A DNA stretch of 64,000 nt, taken from positions 1 to 64,000 of the forward strand of contig NZ_MPHJ01000002.1 of the NCBI RefSeq assembly GCF_001957125.1, read 5' to 3'. Shown here piece by piece: positions 32,799-40,146 of the stretch; position 1 is the first letter of the stretch; every line of letters starts with the position of its first letter. Both the position numbers and the translations under genes were made by a program. Source of the stretch: Shewanella sp. UCD-KL12. GTDB taxonomy: Bacteria; Pseudomonadota; Gammaproteobacteria; Enterobacterales; Shewanellaceae. The notes under the pieces were generated by a model, which was not told the DNA's origin, did not search any database, and worked only from the letters and a program-made list of their open reading frames with translations.

Positions 32799-33605
32799 CT
32801 ATCTGTTCTTATCTTCCTTAACCTCTTTAATCTCCTTATGCAGTTCGGTGATCTCCTGCATAAGTTGGTTTTGGTTCTTTTCCATGCGATCTAAGGCCAG
32901 TTTTAGTTCGCACTTTATCTCTTCACTTTGGGTTTCAAGTTTTTCTGTTTCATCGGGCGCGATAAAAATTGAAGCCATATAACCAGAAATTACCCCGAAA
33001 AAGCTGACACCACATATGATAACAATTGCGCCTATTACATGGCCTGCGGTTGTGACGGGATAAAAGTCACCATAACCAACTGTGGATATCGTCACTAATG
33101 CCCACCAGATGGCATTCTCAGCAGTTTGTATATTGGCATCGGGTACACCACTCTCTACGATTAACATTAAAACTGAAGAGAGGGTTAAAATAGTGACCAT
33201 GGCGACTAATAAGCTCGCCATAGTGGCTTGCCGCCGCTGTTTAACCATTGGAGCTATCAGTGAGTGTGTCATCCTTATGAGTCTAATGACCCGTAAGATC
33301 TGGAATAAACGCGCTAATCTAAGGGGCTCAATGGCGGGTATGCTGGCAACAAAGTCAATCCAGTTATGTTGCAGATAGAGTAACTTGTTATCAGCTTTAA
33401 ATAGATTAAAGAAAAAGTAGCTGAGGAATATCATGCAGATACTGAAGTCTATCATCAGTAATAGTCGCCTGGTTTCCTCTTCAACTTTTGCAAAGGTGAG
33501 TACAAGCACGACAATGACAGAAAGAAAAGACAGCACCATCATGGCTAACTGAAAGGGTGTTGGATGTGTTTCTGTCTCTGGAAACCAGCGACTTAAATTT
33601 GCCAT
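32799..33605 (-). CDS. Voltage-gated K+ channel (6-TM ion transporter)
   Basis: 268-residue inner-membrane channel subunit. Six membrane helices are visible. The fourth region carries regularly spaced Arg residues (RLARLFQILRVIRLIRMTH), a voltage-sensor-like S4. The pore loop has the K+ selectivity filter TVGYGD (TISTVGYGDFYP). A C-terminal coiled coil of about 45 charged residues (KLALDRMEKNQNQLMQEI and onward) could drive tetramerisation. It lies at the end of the minus-strand cluster, 67 bases after the ribbon-helix-helix gene. Ion channels of this type have been reported next to PspA-linked genes in genome surveys, so it may be part of the membrane-stress system; this is inference. Confidence 0.88.
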   Translation of the reverse strand: MANLSRWFPETETHPTPFQLAMMVLSFLSVIVVLVLTFAKVEEETRRLLLMIDFSICMIFLSYFFFNLFKADNKLLYLQHNWIDFVASIPAIEPLRLARLFQILRVIRLIRMTHSLIAPMVKQRRQATMASLLVAMVTILTLSSVLMLIVESGVPDANIQTAENAIWWALVTISTVGYGDFYPVTTAGHVIGAIVIICGVSFFGVISGYMASIFIAPDETEKLETQSEEIKCELKLALDRMEKNQNQLMQEITELHKEIKEVKEDKNR

Positions 33606-33672: not shown

Positions 33673-34002
33673 CTAGTTTTTATCGCTAAAGTGGATGAGA
33701 TCATCAAGAACCCGTTTTTTTATTTCGAGTTGAGAATCAGGAGATAAGTCATATTTTTCGGCTAATAACAGATAATCTTCAGGACTGAGAGATACGGTTA
33801 GGCGTGGACGTTTAGGGCGCTTGGTTACCGAAAGGCCAAGAATAGTGCGTATCTGATCTGAAGGGCTGAAACCTGAGTCGAGTGCTGCTTTACGTATGGA
33901 ATACTGAAATTGTTCATCTAAGTCGAATGCTACTTGAGTTGCCTTGGCGGCTTTCTGGTTTTGTAACCATTGCTCGGGAAGTGGATTCTTTTTCTTAGTC
34001 AT
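33673..34002 (-). CDS. Putative ribbon-helix-helix protein with two similar halves
   Basis: 109-residue basic protein. Two segments resemble ribbon-helix-helix units. The first is residues 22-57 (QVAFDLDEQFQYSIRKAALD, then SGFSPSDQIRTILGL). The second is 65-102 (RPRLTVSLSPEDYLLLAEKY, then DLSPDSQLEIKKRVLDDLIHF). Each starts with a short strand of alternating hydrophobic residues and continues with two helices. Such proteins usually bind short palindromic DNA as dimers. It is the only obvious DNA-binding candidate in the PspA cluster, so it may recognise the GACATAATATGTC palindromes. I do not know a named family. Confidence 0.7.
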   Translation of the reverse strand: MTKKKNPLPEQWLQNQKAAKATQVAFDLDEQFQYSIRKAALDSGFSPSDQIRTILGLSVTKRPKRPRLTVSLSPEDYLLLAEKYDLSPDSQLEIKKRVLDDLIHFSDKN

Positions 34003-34089: not shown

Positions 34090-34746
34090 TTATTTAGCTG
34101 GCCAGTAATCTCGTATATCGGCAAGCGGGCGGTACAAGGTTAACATGACATCGGTATCGCCATCTGCATAGACTTCGACATCAATGGCATATTTTTCCTC
34201 TTCATCTAAACAGTGGTAGGACTCAAATTCGTCACCTGTTGCGCCATCTGCGTCTTGAGGTGGTTTTTTACCACGATAATCTTCACGATGAAAATACCCA
34301 AACTGAGCAAAGTTGACCTGATGATACTCTTTGCCAAGCCATTGAGCGTACTCGCTAACCAACTCTTTACTGAGTGTCTGTGTCGTTAAATGAGCCTGCT
34401 CTTCCTCTTCGAAAATAGCCCCGAACTGATCGAGATCGAAAATCTGCTCCACGATAGAACGGTTGAGCTTAATTGAAAATGCTAAGTAGGTTTCGTCATC
34501 CTCATCAAGAGAAAGGAAAATCGTATCGCTACCATGTCCTTTAAGTACCCACTCTGTTTGCTGCTTACGTTGATATTCGTAGGTACTGATAGACTCAACC
34601 CTAAGCTGCTGGCCTCGTAATTGAGGTGGCAAGGCAAAGCTATCATCGAGAGAGATCACATCTCCCTTAAGGAGCTTAGAGGGGTGGTCAAGCTGACGCT
34701 TTGGCTCTTCTTTCTTGCCAAAAAGACCTTTTAAGAAACTCATCAT
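34090..34746 (-). CDS. yjfK: DUF2491 family protein, YjfK-like
   Basis: 218 residues, soluble and acidic, with no signal peptide. It opens MMSFLKGLFGKKEEPKRQ, a short amphipathic membrane-binding-like helix. A strand-rich region follows, with EWVLKGHGSDTIFLSLDEDD, and a conserved C-terminal part with Y-H-C-L-D-E-E-E-K-Y and VEVYADGDTDVMLTLYRPL. This is the character of DUF2491, encoded in E. coli as yjfK directly after yjfJ, the same order as here. The role is unknown; it is probably a partner of the PspA-type protein. Confidence 0.8.
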   Translation of the reverse strand: MMSFLKGLFGKKEEPKRQLDHPSKLLKGDVISLDDSFALPPQLRGQQLRVESISTYEYQRKQQTEWVLKGHGSDTIFLSLDEDDETYLAFSIKLNRSIVEQIFDLDQFGAIFEEEEQAHLTTQTLSKELVSEYAQWLGKEYHQVNFAQFGYFHREDYRGKKPPQDADGATGDEFESYHCLDEEEKYAIDVEVYADGDTDVMLTLYRPLADIRDYWPAK

Positions 34747-34907: not shown

Positions 34908-35594
34908 TTACTTACGCGCTTTAAGGCGGTCAAGTACAGCATTGGCGTTCGACTTCTGCTCACCAATACCTGCAGCCGCTAGTTTGTCATGTAGAGACTT
35001 ATCGCTATTCTCTTCAGCTAGTTGCTCTGAAGCGACTAGCTTATCATCAAACTGCTGTTGACGAGCCTTAATACGCTCTAATGAGTCTTTAGCATTAAGC
35101 AGCTTAGAGCTACTACCTGCAAAGGAGTCTGTAATACTGGCAGTCGCTTTTTGTACGCTTTCAGTCGTCTTTACCATGCTCAGTTGACGCTGGTAATCGG
35201 TTAGCTGACGTTCAGTTTTACGTACAAGCTCTTTTAGGCGTGCTGCATGTGCGCTAAAGTTGTCATTAGCTGACTGCTGCTCTGAAAGCTCTTGGTCAAG
35301 CTGAGAGATTTTCTCGGCGACTTCCAATGCAAGGGCTTCGTTTTCTTGCTCAAGTGCTTGAGTAGCGAAACCTTCGTGCTCAGCAATAGAGCGCTTTAAT
35401 CTGTCAACTTCACGGCTAGCTTGCATCTCTTTAGCCATAACATCAGTTAGTTCACGCTTAGCCTTAGTCAGGTGCTTCTCTGCATCACGGATCTCCTGTT
35501 CGAAGATACGAGTAGAGTTTGCATCTACTATGCCTTGACCAACTTCAGTCGCGCCGCCACGAAAAGCGGTTAAAATCTTGTTTAGTATGCCCAT
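34908..35594 (-). CDS. yjfJ: PspA/IM30 family protein, YjfJ-like
   Basis: 228-residue membrane-remodelling protein of the PspA/Vipp1 superfamily. The start MGILNKILTAFRGGATEVGQG is the amphipathic first helix of the family; it is followed by about 180 residues of almost continuous coiled coil. The C-terminal end (KLAAAGIGEQKSNANAVLDR) is that of the YjfJ branch rather than of classical PspA. There is no PspB, PspC or PspF gene nearby. The gene is in an operon behind the DUF2170 gene (yjfI-yjfJ-yjfK order as in E. coli). AAGGAG precedes the ATG. The likely role is to stabilise the inner membrane under stress. Confidence 0.9.
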   Translation of the reverse strand: MGILNKILTAFRGGATEVGQGIVDANSTRIFEQEIRDAEKHLTKAKRELTDVMAKEMQASREVDRLKRSIAEHEGFATQALEQENEALALEVAEKISQLDQELSEQQSANDNFSAHAARLKELVRKTERQLTDYQRQLSMVKTTESVQKATASITDSFAGSSSKLLNAKDSLERIKARQQQFDDKLVASEQLAEENSDKSLHDKLAAAGIGEQKSNANAVLDRLKARK

Positions 35595-35665: not shown

Positions 35666-36079
35666 TTATTTGAGGAAGTCAGACATCTCGTCGATGACTT
35701 CCAAACAGTTATCGGATAGAACGGATAGCTCTTGCTCTATCTCTTCCATATCTGATTGCACTGAAAGTGCGCCATATACCACATACTTGTCATCAACTTT
35801 TGCGAAAGAAGACAGTGGCATTGGGATGTTAAGCTCTAACATTGTTTCGAACATCTCTGTGCGACGTTCCTGCTTAACTTCACTTTCACCCCAAAGGTAA
35901 CTGATGCAAAGAATCTGGTTTTCTGTAACCGATACGAATACCGGGATCTCTTCACGACCAACTACATTGACTTGTAAAACTTCTACGTCACCATCGATTG
36001 GGTAGCAATCGAATTGAAGGCCTGTGTGACTCTGGTCACAAAGATCATTGAGGTAGTTAGCAATATTGTGGATATTCAT
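35666..36079 (-). CDS. yjfI: DUF2170 family protein, YjfI-like
   Basis: 137 residues from the ATG at 36079, which has AGAGGA five bases upstream. An in-frame ATG at 36097 lies inside one operator palindrome and is less likely. The protein is acidic, with a mixed alpha-beta pattern (YPIDGDVEVLQVNVVGREEI, ILCISYLWGESEV, VYGALSV). It matches the DUF2170 family, represented by YjfI of E. coli, always next to the PspA-like YjfJ. Function unknown. It is the first gene of the second unit of the cluster, and two copies of GACATAATATGTC sit at 36093-36105 and 36127-36139 just before it. Confidence 0.83.
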   Translation of the reverse strand: MNIHNIANYLNDLCDQSHTGLQFDCYPIDGDVEVLQVNVVGREEIPVFVSVTENQILCISYLWGESEVKQERRTEMFETMLELNIPMPLSSFAKVDDKYVVYGALSVQSDMEEIEQELSVLSDNCLEVIDEMSDFLK

Positions 36080-36092
36080 ATTTGTCCTCTTT

Positions 36093-36105
36093 GACATATT
36101 ATGTC
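36093..36105. promoter_or_regulatory. Operator palindrome GACATAATATGTC, copy 1
   Basis: A perfect 6+1+6 palindrome, 14 bases before the yjfI start. At this place it would block transcription or early elongation. The same 13-mer occurs at 36127 and 40102. Confidence 0.65.
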
Positions 36106-36126
36106 TGCGATTAAAGATAGCACTAG

Positions 36127-36139
36127 GACATAATATGTC
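36127..36139. promoter_or_regulatory. Operator palindrome GACATAATATGTC, copy 2
   Basis: A perfect copy 34 bases from copy 1 (centre to centre), about three turns of DNA, so two dimers could bind on the same face. Confidence 0.65.
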
Positions 36140-36198
36140 AAGTGCTATTTCTCAAAAAATTCATTAGTCCTGAATTTTGCTAATGGCTTAGTCTTTAC

Positions 36199-37941
36199 TC
36201 AGAAAAGTGTGACTCCCTGGTTTTCTGACCAAGCTTGTTGGTGATACTGGTATAGCTGCATTGAACCGATTCGGTTTGGCTCAATATTATCTATCTCTTG
36301 ATAGAAGTTGCCCGGAAATTCGAAAGAGCCCCTGATTAGGCCTGGCGTGAGCCAGTCGTCTTCTATCGACAGTTGCTGAATGTCAGTGAGCCTTTGTTTG
36401 GCATTCTTACCCGAAGCTGTCGCTATGCTCCATCCCCATTCACCAAAACTCGGTACGTTATGGTGATACTGACTCACATCGAATCCGGCTAAAGCTAAGG
36501 TCTTTCCGACCGAGATAAATGCTTTAGGTGCATGATAGGGTGAGGTCGACTGTACGGTTAGAGCACCATCAGCACTCAAGAGTTCCTTTAGTTTCTTATA
36601 AAAAAGATCTGAGTATAGTTTGTTAAGATCTGGATGACTTGGGTCTGGAAGATCGACAATGATGGCATCATATTTCTCGCCCTTCCTGAGTAATTTATCC
36701 ACCCCATTAAACGCATCATCAACAACCACATTAACTCTAGGATCGTTTAGGGCATCGCCATTGAGTTTAAGCAAGGTTTGGCTCAAACGCTTAGGCATGT
36801 CTGCATCATGGGAGGTAAAGAGCTCAAGCAGGTCTTTATCTAGATCGATCAGAGTGACAGACTTAGGTTGCCATTTAAGCACTTGTTTAAGCCCTAAACC
36901 ATCACCACCACCGATAATCAACACATTGTCATGACGGGCGCTGGCTTCCAGTGTTGGGTGAACCAGAAACGCATGATAGATATGCTCATCAAGACTAGAA
37001 AATTGCAGACGTCCGTTGATATAGAGCGAGTATGCGGGTTCTATACCGCTGCCACGTAATCGTTCAGTAAAGGTGAGCTGCTGAAAACGCGTCGATTTGG
37101 CATAAATCACATCATCTTTATAGAGCAAATTGTTGAAGTTTTGCTCCCAACTCGGGCCGTGCCAAGCAAGCACCAGTAAGATGCCTGAGGCAATAAAGTG
37201 GCCAACTAATAAGGTTTTTACAAACTGGATGCGATCCCAGAAACGCCAGATAAAGATGAAACCTGCGAGTAAATTGAAGCTTGCTGTTAACGCGGCTGCA
37301 AGCTGAATATCGATGGCCAGCATAAAGGTTACCCAGATAGCTGCGCCGATACCCGCACCGACATAGTCAGCGCCATAAATGGTGCCTGCATTATGCATCA
37401 AGTGTTCATCACATAGCGATTGCCGTACACGAGCAATGAGCGGGATCTCCATACCGATCATTAAGCCGAGTATGACACCCCAGAAGTAAGGTAAATACTC
37501 ACTTAAGTGCTGCAATAAGCCAATAAAGCCCCCCTCGGGAAGCTGATCAGGTGGTAGGCCAAGTGTACTGGCAATAATAAGGGGAAGTTGCTGGCCAAAA
37601 CCGATAATGGCGGCGGTGATTAAAATTGCGAGTGAGCCACACAGGGCGACACTGAGTTCTAACACGGCGAAGCCTGTGAAGGCACAGCGAATCTTTCTGG
37701 CTGCGAAGGCACCGATACCCATGGAGACGATCATAAGACCAATCATGGTGTAAATAGCAGCTTCTAAGGCCCCTAGAATACGGCCGGCATAATGAGATAA
37801 GAGGTATTCATAGATTAAGCCACACCCGGCAAGTACAGCCATGATGCCAAGCAGTAGGGTGTCATCGAACCAACTGAGCTTTCTTTGTTTATCAGATTTG
37901 TTGGTATTAAGCGCTGTTTCAGTCACTTGAATCTCTTGCAT
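36199..37941 (-). CDS. Membrane-bound spermidine-synthase-like aminopropyltransferase
   Basis: 580 residues. The first ~250 are seven or eight membrane helices. The cytoplasmic C-terminal part is a spermidine-synthase fold with the SAM-type motif IIGGGDGLGLKQ (near 340), DLDKDLLELF, and the catalytic-type Asp region VDLPDPSHPDLNKLYSDLFY. It should transfer aminopropyl from decarboxylated S-adenosylmethionine to an amine, but no S-adenosylmethionine decarboxylase gene is in the window. It is the last gene of the first unit (lipoprotein, DUF350, this gene). Membrane-bound enzymes of this type are known beside PspA/DUF350 genes. Confidence 0.85.
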   Translation of the reverse strand: MQEIQVTETALNTNKSDKQRKLSWFDDTLLLGIMAVLAGCGLIYEYLLSHYAGRILGALEAAIYTMIGLMIVSMGIGAFAARKIRCAFTGFAVLELSVALCGSLAILITAAIIGFGQQLPLIIASTLGLPPDQLPEGGFIGLLQHLSEYLPYFWGVILGLMIGMEIPLIARVRQSLCDEHLMHNAGTIYGADYVGAGIGAAIWVTFMLAIDIQLAAALTASFNLLAGFIFIWRFWDRIQFVKTLLVGHFIASGILLVLAWHGPSWEQNFNNLLYKDDVIYAKSTRFQQLTFTERLRGSGIEPAYSLYINGRLQFSSLDEHIYHAFLVHPTLEASARHDNVLIIGGGDGLGLKQVLKWQPKSVTLIDLDKDLLELFTSHDADMPKRLSQTLLKLNGDALNDPRVNVVVDDAFNGVDKLLRKGEKYDAIIVDLPDPSHPDLNKLYSDLFYKKLKELLSADGALTVQSTSPYHAPKAFISVGKTLALAGFDVSQYHHNVPSFGEWGWSIATASGKNAKQRLTDIQQLSIEDDWLTPGLIRGSFEFPGNFYQEIDNIEPNRIGSMQLYQYHQQAWSENQGVTLF

Positions 37942-38005
37942 TTAGGTAAATAAAACGGCTAATCAAATGATTAACCGTATTTAGGGTTAGATTGGCTAGT
38001 CTGAG

Positions 38006-38905
38006 TTAGTACATGAGGCTAGTAAGAATAAGTGCCACGGCGACACTGATAGCAAGCTCTACAGTCGCAATACCGATATTGTGTTGCTGCTCAACCTCTT
38101 GTGCCAAATTAATATTCGACAGCACGAGTTTCTTTACTATTTTTATCAGTACAGACAGAGCAACTAACATGATAATCGAGAAGACTAGCCAACCAATGAG
38201 ATTCGCAATATAGGCTTCAGGGTTATAGATGATGAAGTGACTTGCCGCATTGAAGCTCAGTGCCATCGCTAACATGTAACCGCTATGACGAATTGCTACG
38301 GCCTTATGTCCTTTAACTAACGCTTCCTGCATAGAGGCATCTTGATTACGCTTGGCGTACCTATGCTCTCTAAAGCGGGTAAGCAGCACTAGCATAAGCT
38401 GCGAAATCGCGAATGCACTAAAGATAGCGATAAAGGTATCGACTGTTAGATCTTCTGCCCAGATAAGTACTGAACGAATGATAATGGCTGTGGCTATTGC
38501 CGCACTGGCATCAACGATGGCAACTGAAATATTGCCTTTCAGGATCTGCTCGCCTTTGTTGAACTCGTTCAGGGCTATCTTATCGTGAAGATAGCGGCCG
38601 AGCTTAATCAGTGCTAAACCAAAGAGGCCATAGATACTCATGCCGATAGCTTCGACAAGATAGGACTCTGCTGCTTCACCAGAGATAGCCCCAGTAAGCA
38701 CAATCCCCAAACCAGCAATAGCACCGGCTGTACTAATACCGAAGGCAAAGTTATCTTTCTCTGCCAGTTCGACGCGGCTATCAACTTTTGCTGTCCAGCC
38801 CTGAAGGTAGCGCATTAAGGTTAAAAGAATAATGGCGATAATCAGATCGATCACTAAAATGATCGCAAGATCTGCTGTTAAGCCGAAATTTTGAAAAAAT
38901 GTCAT
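38006..38905 (-). CDS. DUF350 family membrane protein, YjfL-like
   Basis: 299-residue inner-membrane protein with about eight helices in two similar halves: one DUF350 unit at about residues 10-130 and a second at about 155-295. E. coli YjfL has a single unit. Typical stretches are NFAFGISTAGAIAGLGIVLT and the paired G-I-A-T-V-E-L-A-I-S near the end. The function is unknown; YjfL-type proteins are consistently linked to PspA/YjfJ and polyamine enzymes. AAGGAA precedes the ATG. Gaps to its neighbours are 13 bases upstream and 64 downstream. Confidence 0.83.
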   Translation of the reverse strand: MTFFQNFGLTADLAIILVIDLIIAIILLTLMRYLQGWTAKVDSRVELAEKDNFAFGISTAGAIAGLGIVLTGAISGEAAESYLVEAIGMSIYGLFGLALIKLGRYLHDKIALNEFNKGEQILKGNISVAIVDASAAIATAIIIRSVLIWAEDLTVDTFIAIFSAFAISQLMLVLLTRFREHRYAKRNQDASMQEALVKGHKAVAIRHSGYMLAMALSFNAASHFIIYNPEAYIANLIGWLVFSIIMLVALSVLIKIVKKLVLSNINLAQEVEQQHNIGIATVELAISVAVALILTSLMY

Positions 38906-38918
38906 GTGAGTTCCTTAC

Positions 38919-39878
38919 CTATTTGCCTCGGCGTACACCGCGAGTCGTGCGACTATTAGAATTGCGGAAGTTACTGTTCTTAGAGTAATTAGAACGGAAC
39001 TTGCTGCTGCTTTTACTGCGAGTACCTGTTGTGCTCGCCTTAGGTGTACTGGTGCTTTGTCTAGATAGGCTAGTTGAGCCCGTACGAGATTTTGCATAGG
39101 GGCTATCGAACTTTCTACCTTGCGAACTGAACTGCTTTTTGGTTCGCTGATACGTATTGTTTTGTGCCGTAGCCTGCTTAGGTGAGGTATAACGAGCACG
39201 GCCTACATCGTTGTAGTAACTGTAGTTTCTTCGGCTTGACCAGCGGTCATAACCAATAGGGCCACGCATCACATTTGAAAACATGGAGTACATGCCATAC
39301 CAGGCCCAAAAAGACATGCCGTTAGAGCCTGTCTGCCAGCTACCGTAACCTGGGTTACCTACTAGTTGGCTACCGGCGCCAAAGTCATCTGAGCCGTTAG
39401 CCAGTGCAGATGCTTCACGGCTTATAGAGTTAACCCTAGCGAGCGCGCCATTTGACATGTCGGCGACCACGTTGAGCGGATCGGAGATCATATCGTTATA
39501 CAAGCTTGGATCGGCGGCGTGGTAGATGTTTTCCGCTTCAGCGAGTTGCTGATCGAGATCGACATAGTTACTCGCACTGCCAAGCTCTTGATATCGACTG
39601 ACCAGAGAGCTGTACATGGGACCTTGCGTGGTCGCATCTTTGGCTAACTCATTAAACAGTGGTGCCATATCTGGCTGCTGTTTTTCCATAATGCCCGTGT
39701 ACTGTTTCAGTAACATCGCATTTCGGATTTGGCCGTCATTGAGCATTTTACCCAAGGTGTCGATTCTCTGGCCGGCTAATTGCTGAAACTGCGCAATCTT
39801 GTCTGGCCTGTCATCGCCACAACCCACTAAGGTTAATAGCAATGTAAGAGTGAGAATACGCATAAGCATCGCTGCCAT
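38919..39878 (-). CDS. Lipoprotein with basic Ser/Arg/Thr-rich tail
   Basis: 319 residues. The start at 39878 has GGAGA just before it. The signal ends with the lipobox LTLVGC, then GDD; an Asp at +3 may affect sorting. A helical region (about 25-175) precedes an aromatic Gly-rich part (GYGSWQTGSNGMSFWAWYGM). The last ~100 residues are strongly basic and repetitive in Ser, Arg, Thr and Lys, probably disordered. It occupies the position held by yjfM in the E. coli operon, but I cannot show homology. It heads the first unit of the cluster, behind one copy of the operator palindrome. Confidence 0.8.
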   Translation of the reverse strand: MAAMLMRILTLTLLLTLVGCGDDRPDKIAQFQQLAGQRIDTLGKMLNDGQIRNAMLLKQYTGIMEKQQPDMAPLFNELAKDATTQGPMYSSLVSRYQELGSASNYVDLDQQLAEAENIYHAADPSLYNDMISDPLNVVADMSNGALARVNSISREASALANGSDDFGAGSQLVGNPGYGSWQTGSNGMSFWAWYGMYSMFSNVMRGPIGYDRWSSRRNYSYYNDVGRARYTSPKQATAQNNTYQRTKKQFSSQGRKFDSPYAKSRTGSTSLSRQSTSTPKASTTGTRSKSSSKFRSNYSKNSNFRNSNSRTTRGVRRGK

Positions 39879-40101
39879 GTTTTCTCCATTTATTCTGTGG
39901 TGACAAAAATATTATTAGTTAGCACTATATTTCACTACACAAGATAGTACCTGCTTAGGTTATAGTAACCTCTGAAATGAGAATATAAATAGTCGTTTTA
40001 GCTCTAATATCAGTTAACTGCTTATCTTTACTCAAGACGGTGACTAATATATATCATTCGAGACATAAGCGGATCATTTACGTCATATCTATATCACCTA
40101 A

Positions 40102-40114
40102 GACATAATATGTC
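40102..40114. promoter_or_regulatory. Operator palindrome GACATAATATGTC, copy 3
   Basis: Identical 13-mer between the divergent lipoprotein and glnE genes. A half site GACATAA lies 40 bases away (40062-40068). It could control the lipoprotein-DUF350-synthase unit. Confidence 0.65.
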
Positions 40115-40146
40115 GACAGCCAAAATTGTTAGGGATTATTATTGCC

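Follow-up and report, generated by a model that had tools for sequence, protein, structure and literature searches.

Which protein reads the short palindrome that stands before both transcription units of a pspA gene cluster in Shewanella sp. UCD-KL12, and is its control confined to that cluster? The cluster lies in the window analysed here, a stretch of 64,000 nucleotides (contig NZ_MPHJ01000002.1, positions 1 to 64,000), in which the 13-letter palindrome GACATAWTATGTC has three exact copies, far more than chance. Judging from sequence, it is highly probable that this palindrome (relaxed form GACATWWWATGTC) is the operator of a 109-residue protein of the ribbon-helix-helix (RHH) family, the product of the last gene in the yjfI-pspA operon. 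Comparison of genomes shows that the site is conserved, that it stands before recurring membrane-maintenance genes, and that its presence tracks that of the regulator gene. The features that carry this argument are the following.

33673..34002, minus strand: candidate regulator, 109 residues, last gene of the pspA operon; N-terminal half RHH-like, C-terminal half possibly a second RHH
36093..36105, minus strand: proximal operator, reading GACATATTATGTC on the plus and GACATAATATGTC on the minus strand; just past the predicted transcription start
36114..36119, minus strand: predicted -10 box TATCTT, 16 bp from the -35 box
36127..36139, minus strand: distal operator for yjfI-pspA-regulator; a -35-like TTGACA (plus coordinates 36136-36141) arises from its GACA and two flanking T
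40062..40068, plus strand: half site GACATAA
40102..40114, minus strand: third operator, of the second unit; TCGACA (40111-40116), 17 bp and TATAGA (40088-40093) form a predicted promoter toward a lipoprotein gene

Distribution of the palindrome and the regulator gene

None of 100 dinucleotide shuffles of the window reached six matches (mean 1.38), and the window contains no fourth 13-mer site even when up to two mismatches are allowed. The half site is probably a chance occurrence. The whole genome (5.69 Mb) holds five sites, three in the window and two elsewhere, with ~0.29 sites per genome predicted from the base composition of the window and zero copies of a reversed-pattern control in the same 5.69 Mb. 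The two sites outside the cluster lie upstream of htpX and upstream of an nfeD-SPFH-SPFH operon, which are membrane quality-control genes. The original prediction, made from the window, had listed three perfect copies and the half site, all of which are where it placed them, and it was right that the 64 kb hold no further full copy. It had also called the site a cluster-specific operator and proposed a genome-wide count and a comparison of regions upstream of orthologues. The palindrome is indeed conserved upstream of orthologues; the restriction to the cluster does not survive the count of five, as the same 13-mer fronts htpX and nfeD-SPFH here and other genes in relatives. Its remark that the pair before yjfI is spaced 34 bp, about three helical turns, holds within Shewanella, where 12 further genomes among the matches listed keep this spacing, and fails as a rule outside the genus, where the yjfI-upstream pairs are 15, 17, 18, 30, 31, 33 or 35-40 bp apart. 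With spacings from 15 to 40 bp in other lineages, a fixed helical phase between the paired operators was rejected as a rule. Pseudoalteromonas loci also show 34 bp, these having been picked for that spacing, and in G429 the pair is 46 bp apart with a one-mismatch site in between.

Within the genus, the site is present in 96 of 97 genomes (584 copies, median 6; reversed control 3), and so is the regulator gene. The single genome without the site, G063, is the one that lacks the regulator gene, and it lacks yjfI as well. A scan of named genomes for a pair 34 bp apart gave at least 117 stretches; the 80 of the 117 that were analysed are selected for the pair and inform on context, not frequency. 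Cluster genes accompany the pair in 77 of these 80, where it lies upstream of yjfI; 65 of the 77 include the regulator gene, and the other 12 stop short of its place. Both the pair and the regulator gene are present in Shewanella sp. ANA-3 (L126), and presumably in S. oneidensis MR-1 as well. All 24 stretches that extend to glnE carry an additional site between glnE and the lipoprotein gene. The remaining three come from Colwellia metagenome-assembled genomes (L089:1832-1878, L091:4905-4951 and L093:7626-7672) and show the 34-bp pair on stretches devoid of cluster genes; in L089 and L091 the pair precedes a gene for a periplasmic carbonic anhydrase. The Colwellia pairs suggest that the regulon has moved onto other genes.

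We extended the comparison to 295 genomes drawn from across the order and 274 from across the class, the latter tallied without G000 and G101. In the order draw, the site is found in 82 genomes, the regulator gene in 91 and the DUF2170 gene yjfI in 126. At least two sites occur in 64/91 carriers of the regulator gene versus 2/204 non-carriers, and outside the genus in 43/70 versus 2/204. All 91 carriers also have yjfI. yjfI occurs without the regulator gene in 35 genomes; of these, 32 lack the site, two carry a single copy and G203 carries four, on a contig that stops inside the DUF4178 gene, before the place of the regulator. YjfI was accordingly rejected as the determinant of the site, since 32/35 such genomes carry none. 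The same pattern is seen within families: in f6, all seven carriers have 2-7 sites, and the yjfI-only genomes have none (12/13) or one (1/13); in f7, each of the five carriers has two sites, and none of the 18 non-carriers has any. In the class draw, at least two sites are found in 4/8 carriers versus 0/264 others and at least one site in 5/8 versus 3/264, a comparison that includes G103, which belongs to the order of the window genome.

Carriers without an exact site number 22 of 91 in the order draw, namely 21 of the 22 carriers of family f11 and G335 of f25. All 14 f11 loci that were read hold a diverged pair upstream of yjfI, GACATTWAATGTC and GACATATAATGVC; these loci include that of G202, whose single exact copy lies away from the cluster. 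GACATTWAATGTC has altered inner bases in each half of the dyad, which would be expected of halves that are read separately. In f25, all six loci read, G335 included, contain a one-mismatch site; among the class-draw carriers, G452 and G579 show paired copies of CCCATAWTATGTC at a spacing of 33 bp. We surveyed the yjfI upstream region in 50 loci, 48 of them located through a regulator gene and the other two on contigs of G555 and G203 that lack one. yjfI lies within 48 of the 50, and 47 of these 48 have at least one site (up to two mismatches) within 300 bp; in the exception, L283, the contig ends 45 bp upstream of yjfI. No site was found in the three yjfI-only genomes with a readable yjfI upstream region. 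G555 has yjfI on two contigs (L369 and L368): the copy with exact operators is on a short contig without a regulator gene, and the copy adjoining the regulator gene has inexact sites only.

Target genes and their promoters

Outside the cluster, we read 39 sites in the window genome and 12 other Shewanella genomes, chosen among the matches listed and tallied by hand, with Pfam run on one member of each main target group. The adjoining genes are nfeD (12), htpX (11), a gene for a bPH_5 protein (5), AIM24 (3), a small membrane protein with a weak DUF4834 match below the cut-off (3), another small membrane protein (2) and others or unassigned (3). In five f6 genomes, the site precedes nhaA in four and an SPFH gene in three, and other genes found repeatedly behind the sites encode NfeD-like proteins, a second PspA and small proteins that appear to be exported. 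A site precedes htpX, too, in G151 (f12), in G187 (f15) and in the five genomes of f25 that carry an exact one. One site thus stands before several functionally linked genes across genomes, as in a transcription-factor regulon. In G252, two operators ~1.1 kb apart (L335:2500 and L335:3613) precede a second PspA paralogue and an exported-looking small protein, one each.

The position of the operators relative to predicted promoters was scored at yjfI in 48 Shewanella and 29 other loci, mostly Pseudoalteromonas and all selected for carrying the pair. Two T before the distal operator complete TTGACA in 48/48 and 29/29 of them, and 42/48 Shewanella promoters read TTGACA-N16-TATCTT, a sigma-70-type pattern; the distal operator would hold the -35 box, and the proximal one would lie just past the transcription start. 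In the distant genomes G573 and G555, operators 18 bp apart at yjfI provide both TTGACA and TATTAT. The third operator would likewise hold the -35 box of the second unit: TCGACA is found in 16/24 Shewanella sites, and 19/24 have a TATA-type -10 box at 15-18 bp (GACA-N15..18-TATA) toward the lipoprotein unit. At htpX the operator would hold the -10 box, as its TATTAT is preceded at 15-17 bp by TTG and three A/T in 13/14 sites. The CTTGAA that flanks the htpX operator resembles a sigma-32 -35 box. Among eight non-carrier genomes searched, htpX was found in six, with TTGAA upstream in five and not in the sixth, G375; the exact site is absent from all six. In G063 (L408), which lacks the regulator gene and yjfI, CTTGAA is retained before htpX and GGCATAGATAATGTC occupies the operator position of its relatives; this looks like a decayed operator. 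At yjfI, the second unit and htpX, three of the four target types, the site thus lies over a predicted core promoter box (-35 or -10), and the register varies between them. Such placement makes repression the likely mode.

The cluster and the 109-residue protein

Besides the candidate regulator, the cluster and its surroundings comprise the genes below. Here and in what follows, sources with PMC numbers are cited from the accessible part of their text.

32799..33605, minus strand: ion channel protein, beside the operon and possibly a member; a neighbour in many relatives too
34090..34746, minus strand: DUF4178-like protein, Pfam match below cut-off; PMC11237479 uses the name DUF4178 for such a gene
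34908..35594, minus strand: pspA, YjfJ-type PspA/IM30 (E 2.7e-39)
35666..36079, minus strand: yjfI, DUF2170, CesT/Tir-like chaperone family (family from PMC11237479)
36199..37941, minus strand: membrane-fused spermidine-synthase-like protein, a fusion described in PMC11237479
38006..38905, minus strand: YjfL-type DUF350 membrane protein
38919..39878, minus strand: opens the second unit and matches nothing in Pfam; its position makes it the 'novel lipoprotein' of operons of this type (PMC11237479)
40147..43017, plus strand: glnE, divergent, its start codon 32 bp beyond the third operator

The cluster thus contains a PspA/IM30 protein, as a Psp (phage-shock) system does. The longest reading frame of yjfI starts at 36097 and overlaps the proximal operator; the ATG at 36079, preceded by AGAGGA, is the likelier start and would leave this operator outside the coding sequence. 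In two loci of families f15 and f25 (L270:8442-9008 and L258:8387-9004), a coiled-coil protein of 188-205 residues lies between yjfI and the regulator gene, in the usual slot of pspA; by eye it is shorter and PspA-like and may be a reduced PspA. The core of the cluster looks like yjfI, a pspA-like gene and the regulator gene.

In an alignment of 45 homologues of the 109-residue protein (A2; identity to the first sequence 35-90%), Q23, R52, L57 and R67 do not vary, and the consensus includes GLSPSDQIR, a turn typical of RHH helix 2. When compared with an alignment of RHH_1 sequences drawn from related genomes, the N-terminal half reached an hhalign probability of 92.6 (best of 100 column shuffles, 3.6), and 6.1 with a narrower alignment. 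Pfam gave no significant RHH match for the regulator, and comparison with solved structures and NCBIfam gave nothing convincing. The AlphaFold monomer has helices at residues 10-28, 30-43, 47-54, 74-83 and 91-108 (pTM 0.45). A VIA fold comparison returned 15 rows at Z >=2, five of them RHH proteins (Arc, MazE-mt10, AtaR, VapB and FitA; Z 2.3-2.9) and ten not. The sequence comparison with RHH_1 suggests that the protein is homologous to known RHH domains.

A proposed circuit and its relation to known systems

In the circuit that we propose, the 109-residue protein would bind the two GACAT half-sites of each operator and repress the genes behind it. With the regulator gene inside an operon that it would control, the circuit would be autoregulatory. 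We speculate that membrane damage lifts the repression, possibly via YjfI or PspA, upon which PspA, NfeD-SPFH, HtpX and lineage-specific proteins would rise together. It is possible, though we would not count on it, that YjfI (a CesT-like chaperone), PspA or both are the stress sensor, binding the RHH repressor by partner switching and so releasing the regulon. The presence of yjfI in every order-draw carrier fits such an arrangement, by which PspA, flotillin-type, protease and ion-transport genes would be released across marine Gammaproteobacteria and which would be a third route of PspA control.

Several observations weigh against regulation by a repressor of this kind. The counts above are not phylogenetically independent, Fisher values computed from them take no account of relatedness and are not to be taken as probabilities, and the sharpest contrasts are those inside the genus and in f6 and f7. 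In the order draw, exact sites occur in 13/204 non-carriers (11 with one, G176 with two and G203 with four), so that G176 holds two without a regulator gene; reversed-control matches occur in 5/295 order-draw and 8/274 class-draw genomes, and the site rate of order-draw non-carriers is somewhat over background. In the class draw, the three non-carriers with an exact site have one each. The loci read cover 14 of the 22 carriers in the order draw that lack an exact site, and G609 has the regulator gene and no site in the 8.3 kb read. As to the protein, the RHH match of its C-terminal half is weak (hhalign 37.4, shuffles up to 10.2), the AlphaFold models contain zero strands, the first helix spanning the expected first strand, and Foldseek found no significant match (best E 0.89). 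The 29 non-Shewanella yjfI promoters have a poor -10 box (TANNNT in 1/29, two A/T plus TCTT in 23/29), and a fixed operator position near -40 at nfeD would suit activation also.

The nfeD sites bear on a reading in which the same protein uses the same sites as an activator, or acts either way by position, as the tandem-RHH protein AvtR does (PMC5569661). Here the distance from the operator end to TATAGT is exactly 21 bp in 11/14 sites, an extended -10 box (TGATATAGT or TGTTATAGT) is present in 10/14, and a good -35 box is absent by eye. However, the core promoter boxes covered in varying registers at yjfI, the second unit and htpX are ill-suited to activation, and we consider this reading rather unlikely. 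It is quite improbable that the site is bound by a different DNA-binding protein, either YjfI or the product of a gene elsewhere, with the 109-residue protein a mere neighbour. The modest RHH homology of this protein, and the fact that its role is read from its sequence, leave some room for such a binder; yet the site tracks the 109-residue gene, not yjfI, at the level of genus, order and class, and another binder would need an almost identical distribution. We find it hardly credible that the palindrome is a promoter or structural element, such as fused -35 and -10 boxes or a hairpin, although TTGACA or TATTAT lies inside the site at several promoters. All 13 positions are retained, whereas promoter boxes need fewer, and the register differs from gene to gene. 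Moreover, the site is missing from 32/35 yjfI genomes without the regulator gene, and the regulator-less G063 keeps CTTGAA upstream of htpX without the operator. Repression by the 109-residue protein, in our view, remains the best account.

Literature searches gave no published description of the operator or the regulon, the accessible text of PMC9239133 has none, and a search of papers for the 13-mer itself gave a single, unrelated plant paper. The original prediction that the site belongs to no recognised regulator thus found no described match to overturn it. Its view of the site as an operator and its choice of the protein encoded at 33.7 kb for a binding test have also fared well: the site appears to behave as an operator, and the protein seems the best candidate. 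These results point to an undescribed form of bacterial membrane-stress control. YjfJ-type PspA clusters are widespread, and our literature searches found no published account of how clusters of the present kind are regulated; with a 13-bp operator conserved almost throughout a genus, a candidate repressor and few targets, the circuit is directly testable.

RHH repressors include MetJ, CopG, ParG and Arc. The present protein resembles these and AvtR (PMC5569661) in its small size, likely autoregulation and inverted-repeat half-sites, and differs in its half-site, GACAT, and its chromosomal stress regulon. According to Ravi et al. 2024 (PMC11237479), the last gene of some YjfJ-type PspA operons encodes an RHH transcription factor and YjfI is CesT/Tir-like. 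The gene cluster is the same as here; the accessible text describes no operator or regulon, and HtpX and Shewanella are absent from its main text. Comparative-genomics regulons were described for the same genus by Rodionov et al. 2011 (PMC3223726), and none of them fits: the accessible tables have no psp or membrane-stress entry, though some roles are given as 'hypothetical', and htpX and pspA are absent from the accessible main text. The P. aeruginosa bac cluster (PMC10948618) likewise combines BacA, a DUF2170 protein, with BacB, which has a PspA domain; it differs in the -24/-12 (sigma-54-type) elements described before bacA. An orthologous yjfI-pspA-type operon, yjfIJKL of E. coli, showed raised expression in heat-evolved strains, ascribed to a one-base promoter deletion, and a role in heat tolerance was proposed (PMC12492005, 2025); the accessible text names no RHH regulator or palindrome, and the E. 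coli genome was outside our searches. In B. subtilis, PspA and SPFH/flotillin genes are under sigma-W (PMC8581546), a co-control like that seen here, exerted by an extracytoplasmic function (ECF) sigma factor, whereas here a small DNA-binding repressor apparently takes that place. Both the E. coli heat-tolerance role and the Bacillus sigma-W control would fit a membrane-stress reading of the regulon. Shared control would tie PspA to NfeD-SPFH, HtpX, AIM24 and NhaA, in an arrangement that independently parallels the Bacillus sigma-W genes.

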